A stretch of DNA of 64,000 bases from Sphingobium ummariense RL-3. GTDB lineage: Bacteria > Pseudomonadota > Alphaproteobacteria > Sphingomonadales > Sphingomonadaceae. The position numbers and the translations under genes are program-made. Positions within the stretch are counted from its first letter, which is position 1, and each line of letters opens with the position of its first letter. The notes beneath the pieces are model-generated. The model did no database searches. It was not told the DNA's origin and saw only the letters and a program-made list of their open reading frames with translations. Shown here piece by piece: positions 14,141 to 37,117 of this stretch. The DNA is taken from positions 62,001 through 126,000 of the forward strand of contig NZ_AUWY01000118.1 in assembly GCF_000447205.1 (NCBI RefSeq), in the 5' to 3' direction.

Positions 14141-14600
14141 TTTTCATCTGATCCATTAGCACCATGCAGCAGCCCGATTCGCGGCGCAAGGGGTAGGGCA
14201 CTGAAGTGCCGAATGTGCAGATTTCTGCCCTTTTGGGCCGGATGATGCGCATGTGCCGGATACGGTGCATTGGGGTGGGGTGGTGCCGAATGCGTGCCAG
14301 AAGGAATGTTGCGCGTCGGCGAGGATGAGGAAGCTATTCCTTTGATTCTGCCTCTGATCTGCTGGCGCGAGCGCAATGCGGCTTCTGCTGAAAACACAAG
14401 CAGGAGCAATGCGTTGGCAAGACCAGTAAGAGCATCGAGACGGTTCGGACGGCGGAGCGCCAGGGACATGAAGGTGCCCCATGCGCTTCGCGGCGGCCAA
14501 ATCTGACTGATATCTTCGTGATCTGCACCGTCTTTCGGAAGAAGATATGGTGGCACTTACTAACGAAAAAGCGCTCACAACCTCTCATCATTCCGCAATA

Positions 14601-14673
14601 TGGCATGCCAATGAGAAAAATGTCGGCGATATGTGAAGAATATTGCCCGATTGACTCTGTTAATGGCATGCCA
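14601..14673. promoter_or_regulatory. operator pair for the first TonB receptor/PQQ-ADH operon
   Basis: Two perfect TGGCATGCCA palindromes at 14601-14610 and 14664-14673, start-to-start distance 63 bp, both in an A/T-rich context. A possible -35 (TTGACT, 14651-14656) and a weak -10 (TAGGCT, 14674-14679) with a 17-bp spacer would place the second palindrome in the spacer, a repressing position. The TonB receptor start is 89 bp beyond the second site. The arrangement recurs at three other promoters in this island. Confidence 0.85.
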
Positions 14674-14752
14674 TAGGCTAGCGATGGGAAGGCCGTTACG
14701 AGCTTTCACACCAGAATGAAATGGTCCTGCGCTCGACGGGAGGGGGAGAAAA

Positions 14753-17056
14753 ATGAAGGGCTTTTCCATAGCCGGATTGGCTGCGACCTTGTGCGCATCT
14801 GCAAGTGGCATTTCGACCGGTGCATTTGCACAGTCTCGCGTGTCGGGAGTTGCCCCAGCTGAAGAGCAATCGACAACTGATGGCTCAGGCGTTTCCGAAA
14901 TTATCGTGACCGCGCAGCGGCGAGAGCAAAGCCTTCAGAAAGCGTCTCTGACAATTCAGGTGGTGCGAGGCGATGACCTGATCCGGTCCGGCGTCACCGA
15001 TGTCTCTTCGCTGCAGAAGCTGACCCCGGGCGTCAACATCGGCATGACGGGCGGTAATGGCCAGATATTCATCCGCGGGGTCGGGGATTTTTCCGTCAGT
15101 CCGCTTTCCAGTCCCGGCGTCGCGTTCAACGTCGATGGCGTTTATGTGGGCCGCCCCGATGGTGTAAACGGCTTCTTCTATGACGTTGCCCGCATCGAAG
15201 TTCTCAAAGGCCCGCAAGGCACTCTTTATGGCCGCAACGCGAACGGCGGATCGGTAAACCTGATAACCAACGATGCCCGGCTTGGCGCGCGCACGTTGGA
15301 CCTCAACATGCAGGCCGGCAATTACGACCTCATTCAGACCAGTGGAGCCGTCAACCTGCCCGTCGGACAGAATGCAGCGATCCGTGGCGCATTCAACTTT
15401 GTGCATCGTGACGGTTATCTCTCCGACGGCTCGAACGACGACGCGCAGCGGTCCGGCCGGCTGCGTTTCCTGTGGGAGCCCAATGCCGACATCACGGTCC
15501 GCCTGAGCGGAGATTACACGCATCTTGGCGGCAAGGGCAATGATATGGTGTATCTGCCTCGCCGTCCCGGAGCCAGCCCCTATGAAGCGCAGTCGTCGGC
15601 GGCGGCGAATGCTTACCTGGATACGCTTGGGCCGCTCGCTCCCCTGCTCAAGGACATTGCCGATGACAACTTTCGCGATACGACGCTGTACGATTTGAGC
15701 GCTCAGCTTGACTGGAAGCTTTCCTTTGCCACGCTCACCTTATTGCCCGCCTATCGTTACCTCGACTCGAACTATTCCGATCATTTCGCGGAGCGCTATG
15801 AATCGCGGGTCAAGACACGGCAGCGTTCGCTTGAAGCGCGTCTAGGCAATGCTTCTAGCGCGCTGACATGGGTTATCGGGGGATATTATTTTCGGGAAAG
15901 CTCGCCGGGCGGCGTCGTCCTGGTCGACGGCGGCAACATCCTCCAGAACTATCGGATACTCTACAAGCCTTTCACCGAATCCTACGCCGCGTTCGGCCAA
16001 GCGACGGTCAGCCTGACAGACTCCTTCCGCCTGATCGGCGGTATTCGCTACACCCATGAGAAGCGCTCGCTGTCAGGCTCGATCAACGATCAGGCACGTA
16101 CGCCTCCTGTCGTGCTCGAGAACTTCGGTGGCCGGAAGTCCTTCTCCGGAACAACCTACAAGGTCGGAGCCGAATTGGATCTCACACCACGGAACATGCT
16201 CTACGCCACATACAGCACCGGCTTCAAATCAGGCGGCTTTTCGCAGACGATCGAACCCCTCAACGTCTACAAGCCCGAACGATTGTTCGCGCTCGAGATC
16301 GGCTCGCGGAATCGCTTCCTTGATAATCGTCTTCAGGTGAACCTCAGTGCATTCCACTGGAAGTACAAGGATATCCAGGATTCGCGGGTCAACTTCGACG
16401 CCTTGAACAACGTCAATTTCATAACCTTCAATTCCGGCGATGCGACCCTTTATGGCGGTACCCTGGATATTGTGGCGCGTCCGTCCTCCTCGGATACTAT
16501 CACGTTGGCCGGCGAATATGTGCATTCGCGTTACGATCGCTTCTACTTCCGCACGCCGGTGCCCTTCTTGCAACCGGGCAGCACGGGTTGCCCGCTGAGC
16601 GGACCGTTCGCGCCGGGCGCTACTTTGCCCTATGCAGATCCCAGTGGGAGTACGACCAACAACGGGCCGCTGCCCGTGATCGTGGGCGACTGTCGCGGGT
16701 TCCAAATGGCAAGGGTACCAAAATTCACCGGAACCGCATCCTATCAGCATAATTTCGCGATGCCCAATTCGGCCAACCTGACGCTCGGCGGAAGCGTCAC
16801 CTATTCCTCGGGGCGCTGGATCACCATCGACTTCATTCCCGCCGCGCGGCAGGATGCCTATGCTGTCGTCGATGCCGACCTCACCTATCACGCCGCCGAT
16901 GACCGTTGGTCCGTCGGCATATTCGGCCGGAATTTGACGAAAACCGTCTATTATAATGGCGGCGTTCAGGCGAGTTTCGTCGGTGGACTTTTGGCAGCGG
17001 ATATCGCCGCCCCGCGCACCTACGGCATCCGCGCCAACTTTCGGTTCGGATCCTGA
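14753..17056 (+). CDS. TonB-dependent outer-membrane receptor
   Basis: A 767-residue protein. A signal peptide of about 26 residues ends ...STGAFAQ. The TonB box region (SEIIVTAQRREQSLQKASLT) comes next, then the plug domain with IFIRGVGDF and VARIEVLKGPQGTLYGRNANGG. A 22-strand-type barrel follows, ending YGIRANFRFGS. AGGGGGAGAA is an excellent ribosome-binding site. Receptors of this FecA/BtuB-like sphingomonad expansion import substrates other than siderophores. Its position, 6 bp before a PQQ alcohol dehydrogenase and behind the shared operator pair, argues that it imports the pathway substrate or PQQ (inference). Confidence 0.92.
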   Translation: MKGFSIAGLAATLCASASGISTGAFAQSRVSGVAPAEEQSTTDGSGVSEIIVTAQRREQSLQKASLTIQVVRGDDLIRSGVTDVSSLQKLTPGVNIGMTGGNGQIFIRGVGDFSVSPLSSPGVAFNVDGVYVGRPDGVNGFFYDVARIEVLKGPQGTLYGRNANGGSVNLITNDARLGARTLDLNMQAGNYDLIQTSGAVNLPVGQNAAIRGAFNFVHRDGYLSDGSNDDAQRSGRLRFLWEPNADITVRLSGDYTHLGGKGNDMVYLPRRPGASPYEAQSSAAANAYLDTLGPLAPLLKDIADDNFRDTTLYDLSAQLDWKLSFATLTLLPAYRYLDSNYSDHFAERYESRVKTRQRSLEARLGNASSALTWVIGGYYFRESSPGGVVLVDGGNILQNYRILYKPFTESYAAFGQATVSLTDSFRLIGGIRYTHEKRSLSGSINDQARTPPVVLENFGGRKSFSGTTYKVGAELDLTPRNMLYATYSTGFKSGGFSQTIEPLNVYKPERLFALEIGSRNRFLDNRLQVNLSAFHWKYKDIQDSRVNFDALNNVNFITFNSGDATLYGGTLDIVARPSSSDTITLAGEYVHSRYDRFYFRTPVPFLQPGSTGCPLSGPFAPGATLPYADPSGSTTNNGPLPVIVGDCRGFQMARVPKFTGTASYQHNFAMPNSANLTLGGSVTYSSGRWITIDFIPAARQDAYAVVDADLTYHAADDRWSVGIFGRNLTKTVYYNGGVQASFVGGLLAADIAAPRTYGIRANFRFGS

Positions 17057-17061
17057 TCCTC

Positions 17062-19179
17062 ATGCACTATCGCATCACCGCGTCGCGGCGGCCAGCTTTG
17101 GCGGCGGGGCGGCCAGTCGCGGCCGCTCTCCTGCTCGCACTGGCCGCCTGCTCCCCAGCGAATGTCGACTGGGCCGAACATGGCAACGGCCCGGAGGAAC
17201 AGCGTTTCAGCCGGTTGGACGATATCAATGCGGAGTCGGTCGATCGTCTGGGACTGGACTGGTTCGCCGATCTCGACACAGACCGCGGGCAGGAGGCGAC
17301 GCCGATCGCGGTCGGAGGAAAGCTGTATGTGTCGACGGCGTGGAGCATGGTCAAAGCATTCGACGGCAGGACCGGCAAGCTCCTATGGGCCTATGATCCC
17401 AAAGTGCCCCGTGAATGGGCGGTCAATGCCTGTTGCGACGTGGTCAACCGCGGCGTGGCGGTTAGCAAGGGGCGGGTATTTGTCGGCACGCTCGATGGCC
17501 GGCTTGTTGCGCTGGACGCGGCGACGGGCAGGCCGGTCTGGTCGACGCTGACCATCGATCCGGCCAAACCATACACGATCACGGGCGCGCCGCGCGTCGT
17601 GAAAGGCAAGGTCATCATCGGCAATGGTGGCGCGGAATATGGCGTGCGTGGCTATGTGTCGGCCTACGACGCGGATACGGGCAAACTCGCTTGGCGCTTC
17701 TATACCGTTCCGGGCGATCCTTCGAAGCCCTTCGAAATGCCCATCCTTGCCCGGGCTGCCCGAACCTGGGCGGGAACATGGTGGAAGATGGGCGGCGGCG
17801 GTACCGTGTGGGATTCGATGGCCTATGATCCGACCTTGGATCTGCTCTACATCGGTACGGGTAATGGATCGCCCTGGAACCGCCGGATACGTAGTGCGGG
17901 GAAGGGCGACAATCTGTTCCTGTCCTCGATCATCGCCTTGCGGCCGGAGACTGGCGCATATGTATGGCATTATCAGGTGACGCCGGGGGACGAGTGGGAT
18001 TTTACTGCCACCCAACCCATCATGCTTGCGGACCTGACGTTCGACGGAAAACCTCGTAAAGTGCTGATGCAGGCACCCAAGAACGGTTTTTTCTATGTTT
18101 TGGATCGGGCGACGGGGAAGCTCCTGTCGGCCAAGGCTTTCGCGCCTGTGACATGGGCCAGCGGGATCGATCTCAAGACGGGTCGGCCGATCGAGAATCC
18201 CGCCGCGCGTTACAGTGAAACCGGGAAACCGTTTCTTCAGATGCCCGGTCCTCTGGGGGCCCATAGCTGGTACCCGATGTCGTTCAACCCGGGTACGGGC
18301 CTTGTCTACCTGCCCACGCAGACCTTCCCTTTCCTTTATGCCCCGGACGGCGAATATCGCCACAATCGCAGGGGGTGGAACCTGGGCGCGCAAATGGGTA
18401 CGCCGGCGCTTCCGGACGCCCACGGCGCCCTTGCCGCCATCCGCTCCACGATCAAGGGCGCTCTGGTTGCCTGGGACCCGGTGCGGCAGAGGGAAGTCTG
18501 GCGCGTCGATTACGGTGAGGCGTTCAACGGCGGGACGCTGGCCACCGCCGGCGATCTCGTCTTCCAAGGCAATGCTTCCGGTCGCTTCGTCGCATATAAG
18601 GCCGATGACGGCAGGCGGATGTGGAGCTTCGACGCCCAGAGCGGCATCATGGCGGCTCCTGTAACCTACGCGGTCGCGGGCAAGCAGTATATCGCGGTTA
18701 TGGCCGGCTATGGCGGGGTCGGAGGCATGGGGCCGGGCGCATTGACCAACCCCGATCGCAGCAAGCGGAATATCAGCCGGCTGCTGGTATTCAGCCTTGA
18801 GGGCAAAGCGCATCTGCCGCCGGCTCCGCCAGTGGCTGCCCTGCCTTCTCCCGCGCCGCCGGTCGATCTGTCCGCCAACGCCGATCTCGAATCCGGGCGG
18901 CGGCTTTATGAGCGGAGCTGTGGCACATGCCACGGCAGCGCCGCCATCAGCGCTGGGATAGCGCCGGACCTTCGATATAGTCAGATGCTGGCGAAGGAGG
19001 CATTCCACGCCGTCGTCCTGGACGGCGCGTTGAGGGATGCGGGCATGGCAGGATTTGCCGGCACGCTGTCGGCTGCTGAAGTCGAGAATGTGAGGGCGTA
19101 TCTGGTAGCGCGCGCAAAGCTGGCACTCGCGTTGAGGCGCGCCACCCATGCGGCATCGCCGCAAGGCCATGCGCCGTGA
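17062..19179 (+). CDS. PQQ-dependent alcohol dehydrogenase with C-terminal cytochrome c domain (quinohemoprotein), predicted lipoprotein
   Basis: A 705-residue protein. The signal sequence ends LLLALAAC with a lipobox Cys at residue 30, so the enzyme is probably lipid-anchored. The eight-bladed propeller carries the vicinal Cys124-Cys125 pair of the PQQ pocket, YIGTGNGSPWN, and the catalytic Asp in GDEWDFTATQP. The position two residues after that Asp is Thr, not the extra Asp of lanthanide-dependent XoxF-type enzymes, so a Ca2+ enzyme is more likely. The C-terminal domain has one heme site (CGTCH). It would oxidise an alcohol in the periplasm and pass electrons to the respiratory chain. A decayed aldehyde dehydrogenase overlaps its stop (TGATG). 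Confidence 0.93.
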   Translation: MHYRITASRRPALAAGRPVAAALLLALAACSPANVDWAEHGNGPEEQRFSRLDDINAESVDRLGLDWFADLDTDRGQEATPIAVGGKLYVSTAWSMVKAFDGRTGKLLWAYDPKVPREWAVNACCDVVNRGVAVSKGRVFVGTLDGRLVALDAATGRPVWSTLTIDPAKPYTITGAPRVVKGKVIIGNGGAEYGVRGYVSAYDADTGKLAWRFYTVPGDPSKPFEMPILARAARTWAGTWWKMGGGGTVWDSMAYDPTLDLLYIGTGNGSPWNRRIRSAGKGDNLFLSSIIALRPETGAYVWHYQVTPGDEWDFTATQPIMLADLTFDGKPRKVLMQAPKNGFFYVLDRATGKLLSAKAFAPVTWASGIDLKTGRPIENPAARYSETGKPFLQMPGPLGAHSWYPMSFNPGTGLVYLPTQTFPFLYAPDGEYRHNRRGWNLGAQMGTPALPDAHGALAAIRSTIKGALVAWDPVRQREVWRVDYGEAFNGGTLATAGDLVFQGNASGRFVAYKADDGRRMWSFDAQSGIMAAPVTYAVAGKQYIAVMAGYGGVGGMGPGALTNPDRSKRNISRLLVFSLEGKAHLPPAPPVAALPSPAPPVDLSANADLESGRRLYERSCGTCHGSAAISAGIAPDLRYSQMLAKEAFHAVVLDGALRDAGMAGFAGTLSAAEVENVRAYLVARAKLALALRRATHAASPQGHAP

Positions 19180-19650: not shown

Positions 19651-19723
19651 TTGTATGCCAAATATGAGTATATTCGAGAATAATGGGGAAAAATGACTTG
19701 ATTATCCCCTTTATGGCATGCCA
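19651..19723. promoter_or_regulatory. operator pair for the FAD monooxygenase operon
   Basis: A perfect TGGCATGCCA at 19714-19723 is preceded 63 bp upstream by a diverged copy, TTGTATGCCA (19651-19660, 8 of 10 matches). The proximal site ends 57 bp before the ATG of the flavoprotein hydroxylase. TTGATT at 19698 is a possible -35. The remaining interval (19496-19780) holds no other feature I can support. Confidence 0.8.
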
Positions 19724-19780
19724 TTTGAAGCGGCGGCTGTTATCGGAACAGCGATCGAGCCACACGGGAGATGAACGGAT

Positions 19781-21496
19781 ATGGGGGCGGAGTTTCTGGA
19801 TCTTCTCATCGTCGGCGCGGGGCCATCGGGGCTCCTGGCCTCGTCGATCGCTTCCGCCCTCGGCCTTAGTCATCAGGTCATCGAGAAGCGGAGCAGCCTT
19901 CACACCGAACCGTCGGCCCATGTGCTCAAGACGCATACGATGGAGGTTTACAGGCGCATCGGCGTCGCAGACGAGATCTTCCGATTGTGCACGCCGCCCG
20001 AGCTTCAGACCTGCATCGTCTGGTGCGAAAGCATCGGAGGGCTCACCTACGGCCGGCTGGATCTCACCAATCGCCGGGGCAAGGTGCCTCGGTTCATGAA
20101 CATCAGTCCGGTTCATTCGGCCAACTTGCCGCAGAGCGTCGTGGAGCCCCTCCTTCACGAACGGGCGAAGGTCTTGGCGGGGCATGATCCCGTGTCGTTC
20201 GGCGCGGCATTCGAAGATTTCACCCAGGATGCCGAGGGCGTCACCGTCACCGTCAGTCAACAGAGCGGCAGGCGGCAACTGCGCGCGCGCTACCTGATCG
20301 GTGCAGATGGGGCCGCAAGCGCCGTGCGCCGGCAGGCGGGTTTGCGCATGGACGGGCCGCAGGCACTCGCGCATTTCCTGGCGATCCATATCAAATCGGA
20401 CATGATGCCTTTTCTGGCACAGGACCCGGCGCTCATTTTCTTCATCCGGTCAGCCGGGCTTGAAGGCTTCTTCATCGTCCATCAACCGGTCGGGTCACAG
20501 GTATTCATGATGCGCTTCGATCCGGATAGCGCGCCCTTCGAAACCTTTGACGAAGCGCGATGCCGCAGCATCATGGAGGAGGTGTTCGGCCGTCCGCACG
20601 TCTTTTCGATCGCGGCCATCGATCGCTGGGCCATGTCCGCGCAAGTCGCGTCGGGCTATCGCAACGGCCGGGCATTCCTCGTCGGTGATGCCGGGCATCG
20701 CTTTCCGCCCACGGGCGGCCTCGGCCTCAACACCGGGGTCGAGGATGTGGAGAATCTGATCTGGAAGCTCGGCGCGGTCTTGCGCGGGGAGGCGGGCGAG
20801 ACGTTGCTGGACAGTTACGAAATGGAGTGCCGGCCCACAGCCGTGCGCAATACCAACCAGTCCGTACTGAACCATTCGCGCATGAGCGAGGTCGATCACT
20901 CGATCGGCTTCGATGGCGGCCCCACACCTTTTCAGGCGATCCTTGAGCAGTTGAAGGCCGACCCCGATGACGCTCGCTTTGCAAAAATTCAGGCTGCCAT
21001 CAACGGACAAATGCCCCATTTCTCCTTCCTGAAGCTGGAAGTCGCAGCATCGCCGAAGGAGGGGGCGTTCTTGCGGGCGGGCCGCGCCATCCCTCAGCCC
21101 GTGCCTGAGAACGAAGGCTATCAGCCCTCCTTCACGCCGGGCAGCCATCTGCCGCATTTCTGGGTTACAGCGGAATGTGCGTCCCTGGACACCCTCGCCT
21201 ATGACAGGCTGACGCTGTTCGTCCCCCGCGACCTGCAGGAGGTTTGGCGCGCTGCTGTGGGCGCGCTGCCGGTCGATTGGATGGCGGTGAAGATTGTGCC
21301 GCTTGATGCCGAGATGCGAAGCCCTCTAACCAGCGTCGGCGATTTCTGGGGAGGAACGCCCTTCGCCATGCTCGTGAGGCCGGACGGACGGATCGCCTGG
21401 GTCGAACCGGATGAGCCCGGCGACCGTGACGTGGAACTCGCGCGCGCCGTCGCCGAAATAACCGGCCGGCAGAGCGAGGGGACGTCTGCATTATGA
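19781..21496 (+). CDS. FAD-dependent aromatic monooxygenase (PheA/TfdB/MhpA-type flavoprotein hydroxylase)
   Basis: A 571-residue group A flavoprotein monooxygenase. The dinucleotide motif is LLIVGAGPSGLLASSIAS near the N-terminus. The D-G motif is YLIGADGAASAVRRQAG, and the second FAD motif FLVGDAGHRFPPTGGLGLNT is near residue 300. A C-terminal thioredoxin-like domain ends with a segment (LVRPDGRIAWVEP) typical of phenol-hydroxylase/MhpA-type members. It uses NAD(P)H and O2 to hydroxylate a phenolic ring in the cytoplasm. It heads an operon and overlaps the acyl-CoA dehydrogenase by ATGA. A close paralogue lies at 34967-36688. The exact substrate is unknown. Confidence 0.9.
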   Translation: MGAEFLDLLIVGAGPSGLLASSIASALGLSHQVIEKRSSLHTEPSAHVLKTHTMEVYRRIGVADEIFRLCTPPELQTCIVWCESIGGLTYGRLDLTNRRGKVPRFMNISPVHSANLPQSVVEPLLHERAKVLAGHDPVSFGAAFEDFTQDAEGVTVTVSQQSGRRQLRARYLIGADGAASAVRRQAGLRMDGPQALAHFLAIHIKSDMMPFLAQDPALIFFIRSAGLEGFFIVHQPVGSQVFMMRFDPDSAPFETFDEARCRSIMEEVFGRPHVFSIAAIDRWAMSAQVASGYRNGRAFLVGDAGHRFPPTGGLGLNTGVEDVENLIWKLGAVLRGEAGETLLDSYEMECRPTAVRNTNQSVLNHSRMSEVDHSIGFDGGPTPFQAILEQLKADPDDARFAKIQAAINGQMPHFSFLKLEVAASPKEGAFLRAGRAIPQPVPENEGYQPSFTPGSHLPHFWVTAECASLDTLAYDRLTLFVPRDLQEVWRAAVGALPVDWMAVKIVPLDAEMRSPLTSVGDFWGGTPFAMLVRPDGRIAWVEPDEPGDRDVELARAVAEITGRQSEGTSAL

Positions 21497-22638: not shown

Positions 22639-22668
22639 ACTCAAATCGGACACCCCGGGGAGGCCGGT

Positions 22669-24717: not shown

Positions 24718-24745
24718 TATCCATCTGACCCAATGGAGATACAGC

Positions 24746-28884: not shown

Positions 28885-29898
28885 ATGAACAAGGCAGGCG
28901 CGTCGGCGATGAAGGCGGTGGAAATCCGCAGGATCGGCGATCATTTCGAGCTTGCGCCAACGACCCGGCCGGTGCCGGTGGCGGGCGCTGGGGAAGTGCT
29001 GATCCGCGTCCATGCGGCGGGCGTCAACGGACATGACGTGCATCAAGTACACAATGGCGGGCACCCGGTCCTGCCCGGTGAAACGGATCTGCCCGGACTA
29101 GAAGTGTCCGGCACGGTCGTGGACGCGGGACCGGACGTTACCCGCTGGAAGGCCGGTGACCGGGTCTGCGCCCTGCTGCGTGGCGGAGGCTACGCGGAAT
29201 TCGCCGTGGCGCCGGAAGGCAACTGCCTGCCGATCCCCGGCGCGCTCGGCTGGGCCGAGGCGGCGGTGCTGTCGGAGACATTCTTCACCGTCTGGAGCAA
29301 CGTCTTTGTCGATGCCGGCCTGTCGGCGGGCGAAAGCTTCCTGATGAACGGCGGGACGAGTGGGATCGGCGTGGCGGCGATCCAGATCGCCTCCGTCCTC
29401 GGGCACAGGGTCTTCGCGACGGCAAGGGGGGCGGCGAAGGTGGCACTATGCGCGCGCTTGGGGGCGTCGCGGGCGATCGATTACGAAACGGAGGATTTCG
29501 CGGAGGTCATCCAGACGGAGACCGGGGGGCGGGGGGTAGACGTCATCCTGGACATCGTCGCGGGCGACTATCTGGAAAAGGACATAGCGGCGTTGGCCGA
29601 GGGCGGCAGGTTGGTGTTCATCGGCGGAGCGAGAGGCTTTCGCACCGAGATCGACCTGCGGCAGCTGATGCGCAAGCGATTGACCGTGGGCGGCAGCCTG
29701 CTGCGGCCGCGCAGCAACGCGTTCAAAGCGCAGGTCGCGGCGGAACTGGAGCGGAAAATCTGGCCGCATGTCGCATCGGGGCGCATAGAACCGATGCTGG
29801 ATCGCACCTTCCAGCTGGACAAGGCGGCGGACGCGATCGCCTGCCTGGAGAAGCGTCGCCACATCGGCAAGGTCGCCCTGCTGGTCGGGGAGCCCTGA
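28885..29898 (+). CDS. zinc-independent quinone oxidoreductase (MDR superfamily)
   Basis: A 337-residue medium-chain dehydrogenase/reductase. It shows the GroES-like domain (AGEVLIRVHAAGVNGHDVHQ, LPGLEVSGTVVDAGPDV, WKAGDRVCALL) and the NADPH Rossmann motif in FLMNGGTSGIGVAAIQIA. The catalytic/structural zinc Cys sets of alcohol dehydrogenases are absent, and the order matches the PIG3/TP53I3-type NAD(P)H quinone oxidoreductase group. A role in reducing a quinone or enone intermediate of the aromatic pathway is plausible. It overlaps nothing but is one base from the MFS gene downstream, beginning a long operon that runs to 33993. Confidence 0.88.
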   Translation: MNKAGASAMKAVEIRRIGDHFELAPTTRPVPVAGAGEVLIRVHAAGVNGHDVHQVHNGGHPVLPGETDLPGLEVSGTVVDAGPDVTRWKAGDRVCALLRGGGYAEFAVAPEGNCLPIPGALGWAEAAVLSETFFTVWSNVFVDAGLSAGESFLMNGGTSGIGVAAIQIASVLGHRVFATARGAAKVALCARLGASRAIDYETEDFAEVIQTETGGRGVDVILDIVAGDYLEKDIAALAEGGRLVFIGGARGFRTEIDLRQLMRKRLTVGGSLLRPRSNAFKAQVAAELERKIWPHVASGRIEPMLDRTFQLDKAADAIACLEKRRHIGKVALLVGEP

Positions 29899-29899
29899 C

Positions 29900-31279
29900 A
29901 TGGCGAGCCTGGCGAAGGCCGATGGGCAGGAGAGGGGCGGCGAACGGGTGACGACACCACGACGTGCGGCCCTGCTGGTGCTAGCGCTGATGCTTGCCCT
30001 GACATTGTCTTTCATCGACCGTCAGATATTGGCGCTGCTGGTCGAGCCGATAAAGGCCGAGCTGCGGATAGACGACACGCGGTTCGGGGTGTTGCAGGGC
30101 ACGGCCTTCGCCCTGTTCTACATTGGTTTTGGCATACCGCTCGGCCGGCTGGCGGATCGGGGGAGCAGGCGGAACCTGATCATCGCCGGCATCATCCTGT
30201 GGAGCCTGACCACCATGGCCTGCGGAACGGCGTCATCGTTCGCGGCCCTGTTCGCCTGGAGGGCCGGGGTGGGCATTGGCGAGGCGGCGCTGTCGCCGGC
30301 GGCCTATTCAATGATCACCGACGTCGTGCCCAAGCGAAACCTATCCCTGGCGCTCGGCGTGTACAATATGGGCGTTTATCTGGGATCGGGCCTCGCCCTG
30401 CTGGTGGGCGGCGCACTGCTGCACTGGCTGAAGACTGCAGATCTGAGCGCGCTCGCCTTTCTTCCTTCCGCCGCGCCCTGGCGCGTGGTTTTCCTCTGCG
30501 TGGGCATCCCCGGTCTGGTGGTAGCGATCGGTTTTAGCTTTATCAGAGAGCCCCGGCGCACGGACTTCGATGTGTCGGCGGAGACGGCCATGCCGTCGAT
30601 CGGCGAGACGGCGCGCTTCATCGTCTCCGAACGGCGGCTATTCGCCAGCCTCGTGCTGGGATTTGCGTGCCACAATAGCTCCCTTTACGCGCTCCTGAAC
30701 TGGATTCCTGCCTTTCTTGGCCGCCACCATCATCTGATGCCTGCCCATGTCGGCCTGCTGCTGGGCGTGTCGACACTGATCGGCGGCGGCGTCGGCCTGA
30801 TCGGCGGAGGCATGCTGAGCGACCGGCTGTTCGCCGCCAAAAGGGGCGACGCCCCCCTGATCGTCGGCATGATCGGGTCTGTGGGCATCGCGCTCGGCAC
30901 GCTGCTGACCGTCGGCGCGCCGAGTCCGCAACTGGCCGCAACTGCCTTCGCCTTCCTCATCATGGCGGTTGCGTTGCCGATCGGTTCAGCGTCCGCTGCG
31001 CTTCAGCTGGTCGTGCCGAACCGCTTTCGCGGGCAGGTCTCCGCATTCTATCTGGTATCCATATCGCTGGCGGGCCTGACGATCGGCCCCATCGTACCGC
31101 CTCTGATCAGCGATCATCTGTTCCATGACCCCAGCCGGATCGGGCAGGCGGTAGCTGTGACGGTGGTCGGCGCCGCAATGCTTTCCATCATTCTCTTTCT
31201 GATCGGCCGCCCCGCCTATGCGCGGCGCTATGCGGCCATCCATTTGACGCCCCGCGCGCAACAGGAGACGAGCCTATGA
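29900..31279 (+). CDS. MFS transporter, spinster-like
   Basis: A 459-residue protein with 12 predicted membrane helices. After a basic leader, LSFIDRQILALLVEPIKAEL then FALFYIGFGIPLGRLADRGS contains the MFS loop 2-3 signature. Such spinster-like carriers are common in sphingomonad aromatic-catabolism clusters and are presumed to move aromatic acids or their products across the inner membrane. Its stop overlaps the FAH-family gene by ATGA. The substrate is not deducible. Confidence 0.9.
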   Translation: MASLAKADGQERGGERVTTPRRAALLVLALMLALTLSFIDRQILALLVEPIKAELRIDDTRFGVLQGTAFALFYIGFGIPLGRLADRGSRRNLIIAGIILWSLTTMACGTASSFAALFAWRAGVGIGEAALSPAAYSMITDVVPKRNLSLALGVYNMGVYLGSGLALLVGGALLHWLKTADLSALAFLPSAAPWRVVFLCVGIPGLVVAIGFSFIREPRRTDFDVSAETAMPSIGETARFIVSERRLFASLVLGFACHNSSLYALLNWIPAFLGRHHHLMPAHVGLLLGVSTLIGGGVGLIGGGMLSDRLFAAKRGDAPLIVGMIGSVGIALGTLLTVGAPSPQLAATAFAFLIMAVALPIGSASAALQLVVPNRFRGQVSAFYLVSISLAGLTIGPIVPPLISDHLFHDPSRIGQAVAVTVVGAAMLSIILFLIGRPAYARRYAAIHLTPRAQQETSL

Positions 31280-32121
31280 AAATGATCAGCTTTGCCCGCA
31301 ACGGGCGTGAGGGATATGGCTTGCTGAAAGAGGGCGGCGTCATCGACGCGGGCGGCCGTCTGCCCGACTATCCAGACCTCACTTCCCTGCTCGCCGATCC
31401 CGCACCGCTCCGCGCGCTGGAGGGATTGCCCGCCGACTTCGCGGAGGAGGATGTGACGACCCTGCCGCCGATCCCCCGATCCGGCCGCATCATCTGCATC
31501 GGCCTCAACTATAAGAGCCACATCGCGGAGACGGGCAACGATACGCCCGCTTATCCCATCCTCTTCCCCAGATATCCGAGCTCGCTGGTGGCGAACGGCG
31601 CGCCCATGGAAAAGTCGTCGCTGTCGGAACGCTTCGATTTCGAGGGGGAGTTGGCGTTCGTCATCGGTCGTCCGGGCCGGCACATCCCTAAAGAGCGTGC
31701 GCTGGAGCATGTTGCTGGCTATGCCTGTTTCAACGATGGGTCGATCCGGGATTTCCAGCGGCACACGTCTCAGTTCCTGCCCGGCAAGAATTTCGAGCGA
31801 TCGGGCGCGTTCGGCCCCTGGCTCGTGACCCCGGACGAGGTCGGCGACGTAAACGCGCTCAAGCTGACGACCCGATTGAACGGGGAGGTCGTCCAGCAGG
31901 CGGACATCGACGATTTGCTGTTCGGCGTCGAAGATCTGATCGCCTATATTTCGCAGATATGGACGGTCCAGCCCGGCGATGTCGTCGCCACTGGCACCAC
32001 CGGTGGCGTCGGAGCGCTTCGCAAGCCGCCGCTGTGGATGAAACCGGGCGATCGCGTCGAGGTGGAGATCGACCGCCTGGGCCTTCTGTCCAATCCGATC
32101 ATCGAAGAGGTGCAAGCATGA
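31276..32121 (+). CDS. fumarylacetoacetate hydrolase (FAH) family protein
   Basis: A 281-residue protein. The FAH core starts at about residue 70 (RIICIGLNYKSHIAETG). The metal ligands are in FDFEGELAFVIG (E-x-E) with the later Asp in CFNDGSIRDFQ, and the closing motif is QPGDVVATGTTGGVG then KPPLWMKPGDRVEVEI. Family members hydrolyse acylpyruvates or decarboxylate/hydrate 2-oxo-dienoates after ring fission. It overlaps both neighbours by 4 bp in a transporter/FAH/VOC/CoA-transferase operon, which fits hydrolysis of an acylpyruvate-like product to pyruvate plus an acid. A decayed relative lies at 44405. Confidence 0.9.
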   Translation: MKMISFARNGREGYGLLKEGGVIDAGGRLPDYPDLTSLLADPAPLRALEGLPADFAEEDVTTLPPIPRSGRIICIGLNYKSHIAETGNDTPAYPILFPRYPSSLVANGAPMEKSSLSERFDFEGELAFVIGRPGRHIPKERALEHVAGYACFNDGSIRDFQRHTSQFLPGKNFERSGAFGPWLVTPDEVGDVNALKLTTRLNGEVVQQADIDDLLFGVEDLIAYISQIWTVQPGDVVATGTTGGVGALRKPPLWMKPGDRVEVEIDRLGLLSNPIIEEVQA

Positions 32122-32648
32122 CAGCCCCGATGAAACTGGCCCATATCGTTTTTCGCACCAACGATCTGCCGGCCATGCAGCAATGGTATTGCACCGTCCT
32201 CGACGCTCACGTCGTCTTCGGCAATGATCGCATCGCCTTCCTGACCTATGATAAGGAACATCATCGTATCGCCCTGGTCGCCGCTGGACCTTTCGCCGCC
32301 AGACCCAAGGAGCCAGCGGTGGGCTTCTATCACGCGGCCTTTGCCTATCGCGACCTGCGCGAGCTGCTGGACAATCATGATCGGCTGCTTGCGCTAGGGA
32401 TCAAGCCTTGGCGAGTCATCAACCATGGGCTCACCATCTCCTGCTATTATGCCGATCCGGACGGCAATGACATCGAATTTCAGGTCGATCGTTTCGAGGA
32501 CGCCGAAGACGCCAAGATCTGGATGACGGGCGATGCGTTCGCCAACAACCCCGTCGGCTTAGAAGTCGATCCGGATGCGTTGCGTCGGCGATTGGATTCG
32601 GGTGAACCGATCGAATCCATCATGCGCCGCGCCGACGAAATCCAATGA
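32118..32648 (+). CDS. one-domain VOC protein, probable extradiol ring-cleavage dioxygenase
   Basis: A 176-residue protein starting in an ATGA overlap with the FAH gene. The vicinal-oxygen-chelate metal triad is visible: His9 (KLAHIVFRT), His72 (GFYHAAFAY) and Glu120 (DPDGNDIEFQVD). The C-terminal pattern NHGLTISCYYADPDGN resembles small type I extradiol dioxygenases of the catechol/biphenyldiol type rather than glyoxalases. I infer Fe(II)-dependent meta-cleavage of a catechol-like intermediate made by the flavoprotein or Rieske oxygenases. Because no other ring-cleavage gene is in the island, this is the best candidate for that step. Confidence 0.78.
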   Translation: MTAPMKLAHIVFRTNDLPAMQQWYCTVLDAHVVFGNDRIAFLTYDKEHHRIALVAAGPFAARPKEPAVGFYHAAFAYRDLRELLDNHDRLLALGIKPWRVINHGLTISCYYADPDGNDIEFQVDRFEDAEDAKIWMTGDAFANNPVGLEVDPDALRRRLDSGEPIESIMRRADEIQ

Positions 32649-33358
32649 TCGACAAGATTTGCGCCGCCGCCGACGCCCTGCGCGACGTTGCGGACGGCGC
32701 GACCATCCTGATCGGCGGATTCGGCGAGGCGGGAAGCCCGACCGAACTCATCCACGCATTGATCGACCAAGGCGCCAGCGGGCTGACGTTAGTCACCAAC
32801 AATGCCGGCAATGGCGAGATAGGGCTGGCGCGGCTGATTCAGCGGGGGCGCGTCCGCAAGCTGATCTGCTCCTATCCCCGCAGCGCGCATGGCTATGTCT
32901 TTGACGGGCTTTACCGGCAGGGCAGGATCGAGCTGGAACTGGTTCCGCAAGGAACGCTGGCCGAACGTATTCGCGCGGGCGGTGCGGGCATTCCCGCCTT
33001 CTTCACGCCGACGGCGGCGGGAACCGACCTGGCGCAGGGCAAGGAAAGCCGCATGTTCAACGGGCGACCCCATATTCTGGAACAGGCGATCCGGGCCGAT
33101 GTGGCGCTGATCAAGGCGGAGGCGGGCGACCGCTGGGGCAACCTGATTTATCGGAAGGCAGCGAGAAATTTCGGGCCGGCGATGGCGACGGCGGCCGATC
33201 TGACCGTGGCGCAGGTGTGCCGGGTCGAACCTCTGGGCGCGATCGACCCCGAAGCGATCGTGACGCCCTCCATCTTCGTGCAGAAGGTGGTGCACATTCC
33301 CGATCCGATCAGCGAACGGGCGCATATCAAAGAGCTTGCGGCGGGGCAGAGAACATGA
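32645..33358 (+). CDS. 3-oxoacid CoA-transferase, subunit A
   Basis: A 237-residue protein of family I CoA-transferases. It begins with DGATILIGGFGEAGSPTELI, the glycine-rich signature of the alpha subunit, followed by LTLVTNNAGNGEIGL and FFTPTAAGTDLAQGKE. It pairs with the next gene, with which it overlaps by 4 bp. Typical reactions transfer CoA from succinyl-CoA to 3-oxoadipate or acetoacetate. In this operon it would activate the carboxylic acid released after ring cleavage for thiolysis or beta-oxidation. PcaI, ScoA and AtoD cannot be separated by eye. Confidence 0.92.
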   Translation: MIDKICAAADALRDVADGATILIGGFGEAGSPTELIHALIDQGASGLTLVTNNAGNGEIGLARLIQRGRVRKLICSYPRSAHGYVFDGLYRQGRIELELVPQGTLAERIRAGGAGIPAFFTPTAAGTDLAQGKESRMFNGRPHILEQAIRADVALIKAEAGDRWGNLIYRKAARNFGPAMATAADLTVAQVCRVEPLGAIDPEAIVTPSIFVQKVVHIPDPISERAHIKELAAGQRT

Positions 33359-33993
33359 GCGGCTGGACTCTCGACGAGATGGCGGCGCGCGCCGCCGCCG
33401 ATATCCCGGAAGGCTCTTTCGTCAATCTGGGCATCGGCCAGCCCGAACGGGTCGCCAATCATATCCCGCCCGGTTTCGAGATCATCCTGCACAGCGAGAA
33501 CGGGATATTGGGCATGGGGCCAAGCCCCGATCCCGAGCAGGAGGACATGGACCTCATCAACGCGGGCAAGAAGCCGGTGACGCTGATACCGGGCGGCGCG
33601 TTTTTCCATCATGCCGACAGTTTCGCGATGATCCGGGGCGGCCATGTCGATGTCTGCATTCTGGGCGCGTTTGAAGTGGCGTGCACGGGCGACATCGCCA
33701 ACTGGTCGAGCGGCAAGGACGGAGTGCCGGCGGTCGGCGGCGCCATGGATCTGGCCGCTGGTGCTAAGAGCCTGCGGGTCATCACGTCCCATGTGACCCG
33801 GTCGGGGAGTCCCAAGCTGCTGTCCCAACTGACCCTGCCTGCTACGGGCCGTGGCGTCATCGACCGCATCTACACCGATCTGGGCGTCCTGGACCCCAAG
33901 GGCGATCATTTTCGCCTCGTCGAGATGGCGCCGGGCGTCACCGTCGACGATATCCGCCGCCAGACCGGCGCGCCGATCGAAGGATCCGCATAG
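33355..33993 (+). CDS. 3-oxoacid CoA-transferase, subunit B
   Basis: A 212-residue beta subunit with the ATG at 33355 overlapping the A subunit. SFVNLGIGQPERVANHIPPG is followed by the catalytic segment LHSENGILGMGP, with Glu48 as the expected nucleophile. GGAFFHHADSFAMIRGGHVD and the GDIANW segment complete the fold. It ends the operon that starts at 28885, and a strong hairpin follows 7 bp after the stop. The pair would act in the cytoplasm as an alpha/beta heteromer. Confidence 0.93.
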   Translation: MSGWTLDEMAARAAADIPEGSFVNLGIGQPERVANHIPPGFEIILHSENGILGMGPSPDPEQEDMDLINAGKKPVTLIPGGAFFHHADSFAMIRGGHVDVCILGAFEVACTGDIANWSSGKDGVPAVGGAMDLAAGAKSLRVITSHVTRSGSPKLLSQLTLPATGRGVIDRIYTDLGVLDPKGDHFRLVEMAPGVTVDDIRRQTGAPIEGSA

Positions 33994-33999
33994 CAGGTC

Positions 34000-34030: not shown

Positions 34031-34035
34031 CCCGA

Positions 34036-34926
34036 TCAGGTCACCGGCACACCGAGCAGCGGCAATTCCCGGCGCAGATATTGTTCGAACGTTATTGGCT
34101 TGCGGCCCAGGAACCATTCCAGGATGTTGGAATTGCCGACGAACTCATGATCAGAATACCAGGCCGCGATGGATGTCAGGACGCGGTGAATGCCCTGATT
34201 TTGTGGCGTGATCTCGGATGAACCCCATCGGTGCGCGATGGCTTCGTCCACATTGCTCTGGACGACCGGAATCTCCTTGCCCATCACGCGCGAAAATATC
34301 CGCGCCATTTCGCGCGAGGTCAGCTTGTCCGTACCCGACAACTCATAGCTGGCATAGAAATGCCTGGACCCCTCGACCAGAACCTTGGCGGCGACGTCGG
34401 TCAGGTCCTCGACGTCGATCAGCGATCCCCTTCGTCCTTCGCGCACTTTCCAGAACACCCTGAGTTCGCCGGTCGCGAGGACCGGGCCGAACTGCATGGC
34501 CGGGATCATGAAGTCGCACGGCTTGAGCACGGTATAGGGAAGGCCGGATTCATAGAGCTTTTCCTCTATGTCCCGCTTAAAGCGATGCTGGACGATGTCG
34601 ATAATCGAATGGAGCACCGAACTGAACACCACATGCGGCGTGCGGCAACGGCGGGCCGCTTCTATCATGGAGTGTCCCATCTCCAGTTCGGTCCAGCGCC
34701 CTGCCGGCCCGATATGATAGACGGCATCGCAACCCTCGAGCGCGCGGGTGTAGAAGTCGACGTCGGTAAGATCGCCGATAAGCACTTCCGAGGCACCCAG
34801 CGCTCGCGTTTCCGCTTCCTTGTCGCCCGACACGCGGACGGCCCGCACCTGATGTCCCATTGCCGACAGTTTGGGGATCAACCTTCGTGACTGATTGCCG
34901 CCCGCAGCGGTCACCAATATCTTCAT
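34036..34926 (-). CDS. NmrA/SDR-family NAD(P)-binding protein
   Basis: A 296-residue protein with the ATG at 34926 and GGGAGAG upstream. The Rossmann entry MKILVTAAGGNQSRRLIPKL has the NmrA-like form of the glycine motif (VTAAGGNQSR). DLTDVDFYTRALEGCDAVYH and FSSVLHSIIDIVQHRFKRDI occupy the usual SDR positions, but the Tyr-x-x-x-Lys catalytic pair is not clear. NmrA-like proteins sense NAD(P) or reduce quinone-like substrates. It is transcribed with, and lies 40 bp downstream of, the second flavoprotein hydroxylase on the minus strand. The function in the pathway is unknown. Confidence 0.8.
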   Translation of the reverse strand: MKILVTAAGGNQSRRLIPKLSAMGHQVRAVRVSGDKEAETRALGASEVLIGDLTDVDFYTRALEGCDAVYHIGPAGRWTELEMGHSMIEAARRCRTPHVVFSSVLHSIIDIVQHRFKRDIEEKLYESGLPYTVLKPCDFMIPAMQFGPVLATGELRVFWKVREGRRGSLIDVEDLTDVAAKVLVEGSRHFYASYELSGTDKLTSREMARIFSRVMGKEIPVVQSNVDEAIAHRWGSSEITPQNQGIHRVLTSIAAWYSDHEFVGNSNILEWFLGRKPITFEQYLRRELPLLGVPVT

Positions 34927-34966
34927 TTTCACTCTCCCGGGTTGATGTTTCAGCCGACCGAGCCGA

Positions 34967-36688
34967 TCACGCCGCCTCCTTAATGTCGACGATCGTCCCT
35001 GCGAGAACACACGTCATCGCCTTGGCCAACGCGGCGCCCGCATCCGGCAAGGTTCCAGGTTCCACCCATGCGATCCGTCCATCGGGACGCACCAGCAGAG
35101 CGAAAGGCGTCTCACCCCAATAGTCCGCCGCGCTGGCCTTTTCCGACCGGGCATCTCGGCGGAGCGGCACTAAGGAGACGGGCATTCCGCCACGTGGGAG
35201 CGCGGCTATGGCGCGCTGCCACATCGCGCTGTGCTGCTCGGGCGCAAACAGGGTGAAGCGATCGAAGGCAAGGCAATCGATCGTCGATCGCTCCGGCTCG
35301 ACCCAGAGATGTGGTACAGGATGCCCCGGCGCGAAGCAGGGTTGATAGCCTTCTTCATCGGGCACTGGCAGAGCAATCGCCCGCTTCGGCTCGATGAAAG
35401 CGCCCTTCGCGGCTACGGCGGCCATCTCCAGTTCGAGGAAGGCGAAGTGCCGGACCTGTGCGTCGATGGCGGCCTGGACCGCCAACCGCCGGGGATGGTC
35501 CGGTGATGAGGCCAGCTCTCGTATCGCGGTCGCGAATATATCATTGCCGTCCTGACAACCCAGGGCGTCGTCAACCTCGCGGGTGCGCGCATGATTGCTG
35601 ACCGACTGGGCGGTGTTGCGTAATGCTATCGGCCTGCATTCCACCTCATAGCTGTCCAACAATCCATCGCTGGCCTGCCCGCGCAACACCGCGCCCAACT
35701 TCCAGATCAGATTCTCGACATCCTCGACCCCTGTGTTGAGACCCAGCCCTCCTGTCGGCGGAAAGCGGTGCCCGGCGTCGCCGATCAGGAAGACCCGGCC
35801 TTTGCGGTACCGCGCGGCGATCTGCGCCGACATGGCCCATGTATCGATCGCCGCCAGCGAATAGGCGTGCGGCGCGCCCATCACTTCGTCCATGATGGCC
35901 TTGCACTTTGTCTCGTCGAAGCTTTCAAAGGGTGTCACTTTGGGATCGTATCGCATCATGAAGACCTGCGAGCCAACGGGCTGGTGCATGATGAAGAAGC
36001 CCTCGCGGCCGATCGATCGGACGAAGAACACGACCCCCGGATTGCGCTCGAGAAACGGACGCATATCGGACTTGATGTGAATCGCTAGAAACTGAGCGAT
36101 AAGGGACGGCCCTTCCATCGGGATGCCGGCTGCCCGGCGAACGCCGCTGGCGGCGCCGTCCGCGCCTATCAGATAGCGCGCGCGGACCGTTTCCTCCCGG
36201 CCGTTGGCTAGAATAGTCGCGCTGACCAGCGTGTCTTCTTCGGTATAGGTTTGAAACTTGCTGTTGAAATGAACCGGGTCGACGCCTCCGGCCAGTTCGA
36301 TTGCGCGGGCATGAAGCAGGGGTTCCAGCAAGCTCTGCGGCAGATTCTCGGAGTGGACCGGGCTGATGTCGGTAAAACGGGCGACCCGGCCCTTCTTGCC
36401 GGTAAGGTCCAGCCTGCCATAAGTGAGGCCGCCGATGCTCTCGCACCAGGGGATGCAGCGCTGGAGCTCGACCGGGGTGCTGAGACAGGAAATCTTGTCC
36501 GCGATCCCGATGCGACGATATATTTCCATCGTATGGGTTTTGAGAACATGGGCCGAAGGCTCGGTATGGAGCCCGGAGCGGGCCTCTGCCACCCTGTGTG
36601 AGAGGCCGAGTTTGGAGGCGATGCAGGAGGCGAGAAGGCCCGCCGGGCCGGCTCCTACGATAAGCAGGTCAAGTGGTTCAATCGACAT
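34967..36688 (-). CDS. FAD-dependent aromatic monooxygenase, paralogue of the protein at 19781
   Basis: A 573-residue flavoprotein hydroxylase with the same architecture as the one at 19781. It has LLIVGAGPAGLLASCIASKL, YLIGADGAASGVRRAAG, FLIGDAGHRFPPTGGLGLNT and a C-terminal thioredoxin-like domain ending LVRPDGRIAWVEPG. Long blocks are nearly identical between the two, such as HTEPSAHVLKTHTMEIYRRI here, so they arose by duplication. They may hydroxylate successive intermediates or alternative substrates. It is divergent from the Rieske oxygenase across a 430-bp gap containing an operator pair. The palindromes are more than 320 bp from this start, so control of this gene by them is uncertain. 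Confidence 0.9.
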   Translation of the reverse strand: MSIEPLDLLIVGAGPAGLLASCIASKLGLSHRVAEARSGLHTEPSAHVLKTHTMEIYRRIGIADKISCLSTPVELQRCIPWCESIGGLTYGRLDLTGKKGRVARFTDISPVHSENLPQSLLEPLLHARAIELAGGVDPVHFNSKFQTYTEEDTLVSATILANGREETVRARYLIGADGAASGVRRAAGIPMEGPSLIAQFLAIHIKSDMRPFLERNPGVVFFVRSIGREGFFIMHQPVGSQVFMMRYDPKVTPFESFDETKCKAIMDEVMGAPHAYSLAAIDTWAMSAQIAARYRKGRVFLIGDAGHRFPPTGGLGLNTGVEDVENLIWKLGAVLRGQASDGLLDSYEVECRPIALRNTAQSVSNHARTREVDDALGCQDGNDIFATAIRELASSPDHPRRLAVQAAIDAQVRHFAFLELEMAAVAAKGAFIEPKRAIALPVPDEEGYQPCFAPGHPVPHLWVEPERSTIDCLAFDRFTLFAPEQHSAMWQRAIAALPRGGMPVSLVPLRRDARSEKASAADYWGETPFALLVRPDGRIAWVEPGTLPDAGAALAKAMTCVLAGTIVDIKEAA

Positions 36689-37012
36689 TGGACTTTCATT
36701 TCCTAAATCGCCGTCGCCCCGGGACGGGGAATTCCGCGATGGTGGTGGAGTGGAGCAATCGCGCCAGATGACAGTGCGAACGATGCGCGTGTTCTCGCAG
36801 CAGGCTAGCGGCCGTGGCCATCGCGGTTCCCGAGACCAGGGAAGTCGGGACGTTTGCGCCAGAGCCTATGTCGCTCATCGGCTGGGCGGGGCTGCCCCTT
36901 TACAGCAGCCGAGCACGCCAAACATTCCGACGAGATTGCCAGTCGCTGCTGCATTTCCTCTCATCCCTTCTCCTAAATCCAAGTCCGCCACTCACGCTAT
37001 CTCTAAGCCATA
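36689..37012. other. intergenic leader region with no supported gene
   Basis: This stretch between the minus-strand hydroxylase and the operator pair contains a 60-codon open frame on the minus strand (36696-36878). It has no recognisable domain and no convincing ribosome site. It could be a leader peptide or a long 5' untranslated region; I see no promoter I would defend for the minus-strand gene. Confidence 0.4.
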
Positions 37013-37086
37013 TGGCATGCCAAAATGCCAGTTTGCAATAAGAATCCTTGCAATGCTCCTGCTATTACTTAGTATATGGCATGCCG
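37013..37086. promoter_or_regulatory. operator pair in the divergent Rieske/hydroxylase region
   Basis: A perfect TGGCATGCCA at 37013-37022 and TGGCATGCCG at 37077-37086 (9 of 10), 64 bp start to start. A possible promoter, TTGCAA (37048-37053) with TAGTAT (37070-37075), would place the proximal palindrome at the transcription start. The Rieske gene ATG is 31 bp after it. This is the fourth pair in the island and the only one with 64 rather than 63 bp. Confidence 0.85.
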
Positions 37087-37117
37087 TAAAAGATTGCAGG
37101 CACAGAGGAGGGCGTCC

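Follow-up and report, generated by a model that had tools for sequence, protein, structure and literature searches.

The closest described systems are GntR-type regulators, in part of the VanR group. Atu1419 of Agrobacterium fabrum, an FCD-type member (PDB 6z74, 6za0, 6za3, 6za7 and 6zab), is a tetramer organized as a dimer of dimers, with DNA looping seen by electron microscopy (PMC7797058). It recognizes a 10-bp palindrome, ATGTATACAT, with an essential G3; one copy lies between −10 and −35, the site distances are 190 and 109 bp, and the repressor is autoregulated and controls catabolic genes, a folate being the reported effector (PMC7797058). VanR2 of Pseudomonas sp. NGC7 represses a VanA-type O-demethylase operon, is autoregulated and has several identical palindromes; the three GGGATCCC repeats are bound independently, control of the operon resting on a single one of them (PMC12314914). 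Mutation of IR-V1 or IR-V3 left promoter activity unchanged and the upstream operator is dispensable, which speaks against looping as essential in this relative (PMC12314914). AlkR, a repressor of the same group, is reported as a dimer on one palindrome, and its titration stoichiometry is interpreted in its source as one tetramer per fragment. BusR of Streptococcus agalactiae is a GntR-type tetramer that gauges how far apart two same-face sites lie (three turns), and a 5-bp insertion abolishes binding (PMC8517857). In 29 divergons of the FadR subfamily, two sites at roughly constant distance were interpreted as cooperative (PMC4494728).

The window, i.e., the whole 64,000-nucleotide stretch analyzed here, contains a catabolic island in which four promoters (P1–P4) each carry a pair of TGGCATGCCA-like palindromes (Table 1). 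Start-to-start spacing is 63 bp at P1, P2 and P3 and 64 bp at P4, about six helical turns, so that both sites lie on the same side of the DNA. The initial annotation had listed these eight sites, and all were recovered with the match quality it gave (five perfect, two with one mismatch, one with two); its placement of them in non-coding DNA holds if the likely ATG starts read from the sequence (14753, 19781, 25640 and 37118) are right. P2 and P3 occupy same-strand gaps and P4 separates divergent genes, and the sequences between paired sites appear unrelated among the four promoters. Besides P1–P4, the window holds no pair 20–120 bp apart with total mismatches ≤2; dinucleotide shuffles yielded a mean of 0.047 such pairs, and a 62–64-bp pair occurred in one of 150 shuffled windows. 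Enrichment of the single motif was discarded as evidence: at ≤2 mismatches, 43 copies were seen versus 47 expected in window shuffles, so the signal resides in the pairing, not in motif count.

Table 1. Candidate operators and island genes, in positions of the window
Feature	Position	Strand	Remarks
P1 distal operator (candidate)	14601..14610	.	TGGCATGCCA, perfect
P1 proximal operator (candidate)	14664..14673	.	TGGCATGCCA, perfect; spacing 63
TonB-dependent receptor 1	14753..17056	+	First gene behind P1; Pfam
PQQ-dependent alcohol dehydrogenase with cytochrome c domain	17062..19179	+	Behind P1; Pfam
P2 distal operator (candidate)	19651..19660	.	TTGTATGCCA, 2 mismatches
P2 proximal operator (candidate)	19714..19723	.	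TGGCATGCCA, perfect; spacing 63; gene upstream on same strand
P2 genes: FAD aromatic hydroxylase, acyl-CoA dehydrogenase, enoyl-CoA hydratase/3-hydroxyacyl-CoA dehydrogenase, glutathione S-transferase (24668-25399)	19781..25399	+	Pfam
P3 distal operator (candidate)	25516..25525	.	AGGCATGCCA, 1 mismatch
P3 proximal operator (candidate)	25579..25588	.	TGGCATGCCA, perfect; spacing 63; gene upstream on same strand
TonB-dependent receptor 2	25640..27967	+	Behind P3; likely start 25640; Pfam
GntR/FCD regulator, VanR group	28036..28788	+	Behind P3; Pfam; closest solved protein 6z74
Further P3 genes: quinone oxidoreductase/ADH, MFS transporter, FAA hydrolase, VOC (extradiol-type) protein, 3-oxoacid CoA-transferase A and B	28885..33993	+	Pfam, NCBIfam
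Divergent block: second hydroxylase and NmrA-like gene	34036..36688	-	
NmrA-like gene	34036-35010	-	Divergent from P4; Pfam
Second FAD aromatic hydroxylase	34967-36688	-	Divergent from P4; Pfam
P4 distal operator (candidate)	37013..37022	.	TGGCATGCCA, perfect
P4 proximal operator (candidate)	37077..37086	.	TGGCATGCCG, 1 mismatch; spacing 64
VanA-type Rieske oxygenase	37118..38167	+	First gene behind P4; likely start 37118; Pfam
After the Rieske gene: acyl-CoA dehydrogenase, thiolase, pyruvate-dehydrogenase-E1/transketolase-like, 2-oxoacid acyltransferase	38246, 39464, 40712, 43097	+	Same strand; Pfam

By the patterns searched, the pairs are confined to the island. Two pair patterns, each with a reversed-pattern control, were run against the genome (4,747,364 bases, 139 contigs): the 63-bp pattern with ≤3 mismatches matched only the three 63-bp window pairs, and exact GGCATGCC-N42..72-GGCATGCC picked out those beginning at 14601, 25516 and 37013 and no others, with 0 matches in both controls. 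Exact TGGCATGCCA occurs nine times in the genome, five times inside pairs and four times elsewhere, the latter with no partner (≤2 mismatches) within 30–130 bp. By the initial annotation, many such pairs upstream of unrelated genes genome-wide would have spoken against its joint regulon; neither search found a pair beyond the window, which supports one island-specific regulon.

The GntR gene is the only recognized transcription factor among the tested genes from 14.7 to 44.4 kb; a LacI-type gene lies elsewhere in the window (48364-49398). Its product combines an N-terminal winged helix (PF00392, 60.4 bits; cut-off 27) with a C-terminal FCD domain (PF07729, 62.6 bits; cut-off 24.3), placing it in the FCD (FadR) subfamily of the GntR superfamily. 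Its closest relative of solved structure is Atu1419 (6z74, E 2.2e-30; runner-up 5e-17). DNA-contact residues E29, R40, T41 and R44 correspond to Atu1419 E34, R45, T46 and R49, and metal ligands N133, H137, H188 and H210 to N137, H141, H192 and H214; each is present in 48–53 of the 53 clade members, and R40, the G3-contact arginine, in all 53. By sequence, TGGCATGCCA in turn fits a 10-bp VanR-group palindrome with G3 and C8. The protein is the best candidate binder of all eight sites. An AlphaFold2 model from the single sequence (mean pLDDT 61) is unreliable in the C-terminal part, where the question of a six-helix domain arises. For the island enzymes, no NCBIfam match among those listed lies above cut-off for the hydroxylases, VOC protein, FAA hydrolase or Rieske protein.

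Motif and regulator travel together in the nearest relatives. In a genome of another genus (G281), a GntR orthologue 70% identical accompanies a cluster whose receptor, hydroxylase, ADH, MFS, FAH, VOC and CoA-transferase genes are 53–69% identical; a 63-bp pair precedes the orthologue of receptor 2 (61% identical), a 62-bp pair precedes a GST gene, and one lone site lies in the gntR/Rieske gene interval. Martelella plasmid pMM593 encodes a GntR 52.6% identical; its gntR promoter holds a 62-bp pair, and a lone site precedes GST. This shared occurrence argues for the GntR protein that the initial annotation had proposed as the binder. At greater distance the TGGCATGCCA pair was absent from all 40 loci inspected: 0/18 FCD loci of the family, 0/9 plasmid FCD loci and 0/13 loci of the class (36–43% identical). 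A GntR query against the collection of genome contigs returned a single relative, from Marinovum (30%), which was left out of the later comparisons. Across 397 family genomes, the 63-bp pattern (≤2 mismatches) matched five, namely the genome itself, G281, G341, G101 and G196, and its reversed control matched two. The G101 and G196 matches were set aside as probable chance. In G341, found by pattern, the similar 63-bp pair precedes an FCD gene merely 31% identical, so the coupling between motif and orthology is not strict.

We then surveyed spacing upstream of FCD genes irrespective of the palindrome. The PF07729 sample comprised 30 given loci and the next 100 places among the matches listed; 200 FCD genes were recognized in 198 loci, 169 remained after dropping those >80% identical, and 167 were used, two having too short upstream DNA. 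Sixteen loci carried a similar palindrome pair 40–100 bp apart, with spacings of 51–52, 62–64 or 72–74 bp (5, 6 or 7 helical turns) in 16/16 and a Rayleigh z of 13.6 at 10.5 bp. The palindrome class, NKGNATNCMN, was picked after the training hits had been viewed, so the training p-value is unfair and the fair test is the held-out one, for which score, class and windows were fixed in advance. Among 34 non-redundant new homologues (from 52 loci), 10/15 pairs fell inside the fixed windows (p 2.0e-4). A count of one pair per locus gave 9/11 (p 3.3e-5); this count, like the collapse of same-genus couples, was added after the pre-fixed pair-level one. The exceptions lie at 40 and 94 bp, joined by 41, 69 and 88 bp when all pairs are taken, and the palindromes differ among held-out pairs. 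Whole-turn spacing often persists where the palindrome changes in related repressors, and the roughly six-turn spacing singled out in the initial annotation recurs in related clusters (62–63 bp) and also in a wider circle of related regulators.

The strength of this signal depends on the class and the threshold. Two pairs from the coding controls of the training set fell within the windows, at 51 and 73 bp. Without the G3/C8 class the overall contrast is weaker (23 real versus 10 coding and 9.35 shuffled), with 7 versus 0 coding and 0.45 shuffled in the 61–65-bp bin; with the class omitted, a composite score of 18 brought no surplus overall (78 upstream versus 120 coding), and at a laxer score of 16 the phasing in the training set was weaker, with z 5.7 at 10.5 bp. 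A phased pair lies upstream of the own gene in 14/53 clade members at this stringency, and on the clade tree this label showed no significant clustering (47/500 shuffles as low). In 27 survey loci inspected by open frames, the majority appear divergent.

The best reading is a new VanR-group regulon with a single tetramer on two in-phase operators. We consider it probable that the eight palindromes are operators of the local GntR regulator and that one tetramer grips both sites of a promoter until released by an inducer. As long as inducer is lacking, a single tetramer, built like Atu1419 from two dimers, would hold both palindromes, and bending or looping of the DNA between them would keep RNA polymerase out. 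This would silence both receptor genes together with the hydroxylase and Rieske operons, given readthrough along each predicted operon, and a catabolic intermediate would free the tetramer. Since its own gene lies behind P3, the regulator is presumably autoregulated; we infer that the divergent hydroxylase and NmrA-like genes may share the P4 distal operator.

Two GntR dimers might instead bind independently, one site repressing and the other being spare or serving another start, with spacing inherited by duplication. VanR2, which handles three repeats independently with one controlling the operon (PMC12314914), and AlkR, described as a dimer on a single site, are precedents, and site quality is unequal at P2 and P3. 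We nevertheless hold this to be unlikely: the spacing is kept at four window promoters around unrelated-looking intervening sequence and again in G281 and the Martelella plasmid, and whole-turn spacing occurs in loci with different palindromes, the held-out set included. The palindromes could also be bound by a regulator other than the island GntR, whose binding is a prediction, and the LacI-type gene lies in the same window. In both G281 and Martelella, however, motif and spacing accompany the GntR orthologue, in Martelella also at its own promoter, and TGGCATGCCA suits the 10-bp site of the VanR group, ATGTATACAT, in having G3 and C8; binding by another regulator is therefore extremely improbable.

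Promoter positions bear on a further possibility, a dual regulator whose proximal site represses while the distal one takes a class-I activator position, its phase dictated by RNA polymerase and not by its partner site. With the proximal site in the −35/−10 spacer, distal sites 52, 63 or 73 bp upstream would lie at about −71, −82 and −92, where phased activators classically bind. By eye, P1 offers TTGACT (14651)-17-TAGGCT (14674) with the proximal site in between. A consensus scan, however, detected a promoter at neither P1 nor P4, and its plus-strand candidates at P2 (19655-19684) and P3 (25542-25571) both lie upstream of the proximal site; the scan does not support the overlap of proximal site and core promoter proposed in the initial annotation. 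Resting on such tentative positions, and with VanR2, AlkR and Atu1419 all reported as repressors, a dual role appears very unlikely.

For an island of aromatic/acyl-CoA catabolism, reading the pairs as in-phase operators of one tetramer supplies a likely regulator, a regulon and the layout of its operators. A broader idea, to which we give slightly less than an even chance, is that this GntR clade acts as a phase ruler: a tetramer would read two 10-bp palindromes 5, 6 or 7 whole turns apart, six being commonest, with the ruler ancestral and conserved and the palindrome (GCATGC, GTATAC or GGATCC cores) drifting with a recognition-helix residue. The survey suggests a link between one such residue and the palindrome core. 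If true, spacing would find operator pairs of uncharacterized members with no need of the motif, and half-turn insertions should abolish repression.

Among the literature matches listed, none reported helically phased FCD operator pairs, and none for TGGCATGCCA appears to concern this operator. Neither helical phasing of pairs nor VanR was found in the accessible text on FadR/HutC double-site regulation (PMC4494728), which treats divergons only, whereas P2 and P3 are same-strand promoters. BusR differs as a c-di-AMP-dependent GntR-RCK_C protein, not FCD, whose coiled-coil ruler spans sites 22 bp apart; the window protein has an FCD domain, and its listed Pfam families include no match to RCK_C, the effector domain that BusR combines with a tetrameric coiled coil. 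VanR2 resembles the island in its identical palindromes and VanA-type gene but differs in motif (GGGATCCC) and in needing one repeat only. Like the Atu1419 site, the window palindrome spans 10 bp and carries G3 and C8; unlike it, the motif is TGGCATGCCA rather than ATGTATACAT, the spacing is 63–64 rather than 190 or 109 bp, and the pathway is another. The fixed short in-phase pair, not found for Atu1419 in the accessible part of PMC7797058, is present in the window, and would turn the looping proposed for FCD tetramers there into a wider and quantitative prediction: operator pairs at whole turns, mostly six.

Each of four island promoters (P1–P4) carries a distal and a proximal palindrome, and the eight sites and their spacings were all as the initial annotation had stated. 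Allowing separations of 20–120 bp and no more than two mismatches over both sites, an exhaustive scan of the window retrieved P1–P4 and no other pair; dinucleotide shuffles yielded 0.047 chance pairs each, with one at 62–64 bp across 150 shuffles. Scanning the genome for further pairs had also been suggested, and the two pattern searches run found none beyond the island. When as many as three mismatches were allowed, the 63-bp pattern had no match in the 139 contigs (4.75 Mb) apart from P1, P2 and P3, the window pairs with that spacing. The exact GGCATGCC pair with gaps of 42–72 matched only P1, P3 and P4; reversed-pattern controls of both searches gave zero matches. Nine exact copies of TGGCATGCCA occur genome-wide, and the four outside pairs have no partner with ≤2 mismatches within 30–130 bp. 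The paired sites are real and, in the searches run, restricted to the island. P2 and P3 are preceded by same-strand genes, so the second site there cannot be explained by a divergent partner; P4 is divergent with a second FAD hydroxylase gene.

Coordinates of paired sites and associated features
Feature	Position	Spacing (bp)	Genes downstream
P1	14601/14664	63	TonB receptor, PQQ alcohol dehydrogenase
P2	19651/19714	63	FAD hydroxylase, acyl-CoA dehydrogenase, hydratase/dehydrogenase genes, glutathione S-transferase
P3	25516/25579	63	second TonB receptor, gntR, then quinone oxidoreductase, MFS, FAA hydrolase, VOC, CoA-transferase genes
P4	37013/37077	64	VanA-type Rieske oxygenase, acyl-CoA dehydrogenase, thiolase, dehydrogenase-complex genes
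Window gntR	28036-28788 (+)		
G341 pair (locus L014)	13742/13805	63	gntR/FCD gene
G281 Rieske orthologue (locus L013)	10730-11220		

Among the genes tested at 14.7–44.4 kb, the gntR product was the only recognised transcription factor; by sequence it classifies as a VanR-group FCD repressor, a known type. In G281, a genome of another genus in the same family, a GntR 70% identical to the window protein sits inside an orthologous cluster, with perfect pairs at the TonB-receptor orthologue (63 bp) and the GST gene (62 bp) and one single site between gntR and the Rieske gene. The Rieske orthologue matches the window protein over 145 residues only (41–185) in this otherwise orthologous cluster and therefore looks truncated or frameshifted. 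Plasmid pMM593 of Martelella mediterranea encodes a GntR with 52.6% identity across the aligned portion; a 62-bp pair (0 + 1 mismatches) lies in the promoter of this gntR itself, and the adjoining GST gene is preceded by a single site. The TGGCATGCCA pair was absent from the controls, comprising 18 further family loci, 9 further plasmid loci and 13 class loci at 36–43% identity. GntR had been put forward as the binder; pairs accompanying its orthologues in G281 and pMM593 speak for this, whereas genome G341 (loci L009/L014) is a contrary exception, with a pair (2 mismatches) directly upstream of a gntR/FCD gene only 31% identical and divergent from a TonB receptor 41% identical to window receptor 1. 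The local GntR is very likely the binder of the paired sites.

At three GntR loci of 38–39% identity, pairs of the TTGCATGCAA type precede the regulator's own gene with spacings of 62, 62 and 63 bp, and FCD genes were therefore surveyed. Family, plasmid and class hits together with PF07729 hits (among the matches listed) in 17 genomes gave a training set of 167 non-redundant FCD genes with sufficient upstream DNA, in which pairs of class NKGNATNCMN with a composite similarity of at least 18/20 were sought in stretches of ≤370 bp around the gene 5′ end. This yielded 26 pairs distributed over 20 loci; coding stretches of equal length contained 2 (spaced 51 and 73 bp) and shuffles 0.4. Taking one pair per locus at 40–100 bp, all 16 of 16 loci fell at 51–52, 62–64 or 72–74 bp, with a Rayleigh z of 13.6 at 10.5 bp (16 loci; relatedness partly removed).

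Since class and windows had been picked on the training set, they were fixed and then applied to a fresh set of 34 non-redundant homologues sampled across the phylum. This held-out set contained 22 pairs at 13 loci (coding, 0; shuffles, 0.125). Ten of 15 pairs at 40–100 bp lay inside the fixed windows, against 3.2 expected (p = 2.0e-4; relatedness partly removed); the others were at 40, 41, 69, 88 and 94 bp. Two counts added afterwards gave 9/11 with one pair per locus (p = 3.3e-5) and 7/9 with two same-genus couples collapsed (p = 4.8e-4). Helically phased pairs recur among related regulators with differing palindromes; the spacing outlives the sequence. Upstream of gntR, locus L222 has three perfect TTGGATCCAA copies at steps of 52 and 62 bp (114 in all), possibly a triple operator combining five- and six-turn steps, and L074, with TTGGATCCCA, TAGGATCCCA and TGGGATCCCA at steps of 74 and 62 bp (136 in all), could be another.

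A tree of 169 FCD proteins placed the window protein in a 53-row clade (support 100) that holds 14 of the 16 phased loci; the trait occurs in 2 of the other 116 rows. The phased-pair label is scattered, requiring 14 changes versus 15.5 in shuffles, with 47 of 500 shuffles as low, which does not establish fine-scale inheritance. Two FCD matches on different contigs of one genome (G000:C26:23083 and G000:C101:1289) have the same score and the same open-frame length of 164 aa, which may reflect an assembly overlap or a repeated element. The recognition-helix residue after SRTPxR is glutamate in 97/116 other FCD proteins and mostly L, A, T, V or N within the clade (V45 in the window GntR). Across 33 loci with pairs at 25–150 bp from either set, a small, phylogenetically linked sample, this residue varies with palindrome position 4: A in 7/11 loci with T (GTATAC cores), L in 5/10 with C (GCATGC cores), T, L, I or M in 9/11 with G (GGATCC cores), and E in the sole locus with A.

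The closest protein of solved structure is Atu1419, which, in the excerpted account (PMC7797058), is a tetramer with each dimer on one 10-bp palindrome, reads the essential G3 through Arg45, has operators within or close to the core promoter, and formed loops joining sites 190 bp apart by electron microscopy. Because this tetramer and its loops are the closest precedent, and the window GntR retains the DNA-contact and metal-ligand residues, the simplest reading is that one GntR tetramer grips two in-phase operators, bridging the six turns between them. Counting against it, VanR2 binds its repeats independently, and one upstream repeat is dispensable (excerpts of PMC12314914). AlkR, for which a dimer occupying a single palindrome is described, likewise counts against a bridging tetramer, yet in the partial account its titration stoichiometry is tetramer-like. 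Recurrence of helically phased operator pairs across related regulators with different palindromes was not found in the literature searched, among the matches listed. Distance reading is already known in the GntR family from BusR (excerpts of PMC8517857), which, unlike the window GntR, belongs to a different subfamily and uses a three-turn ruler.
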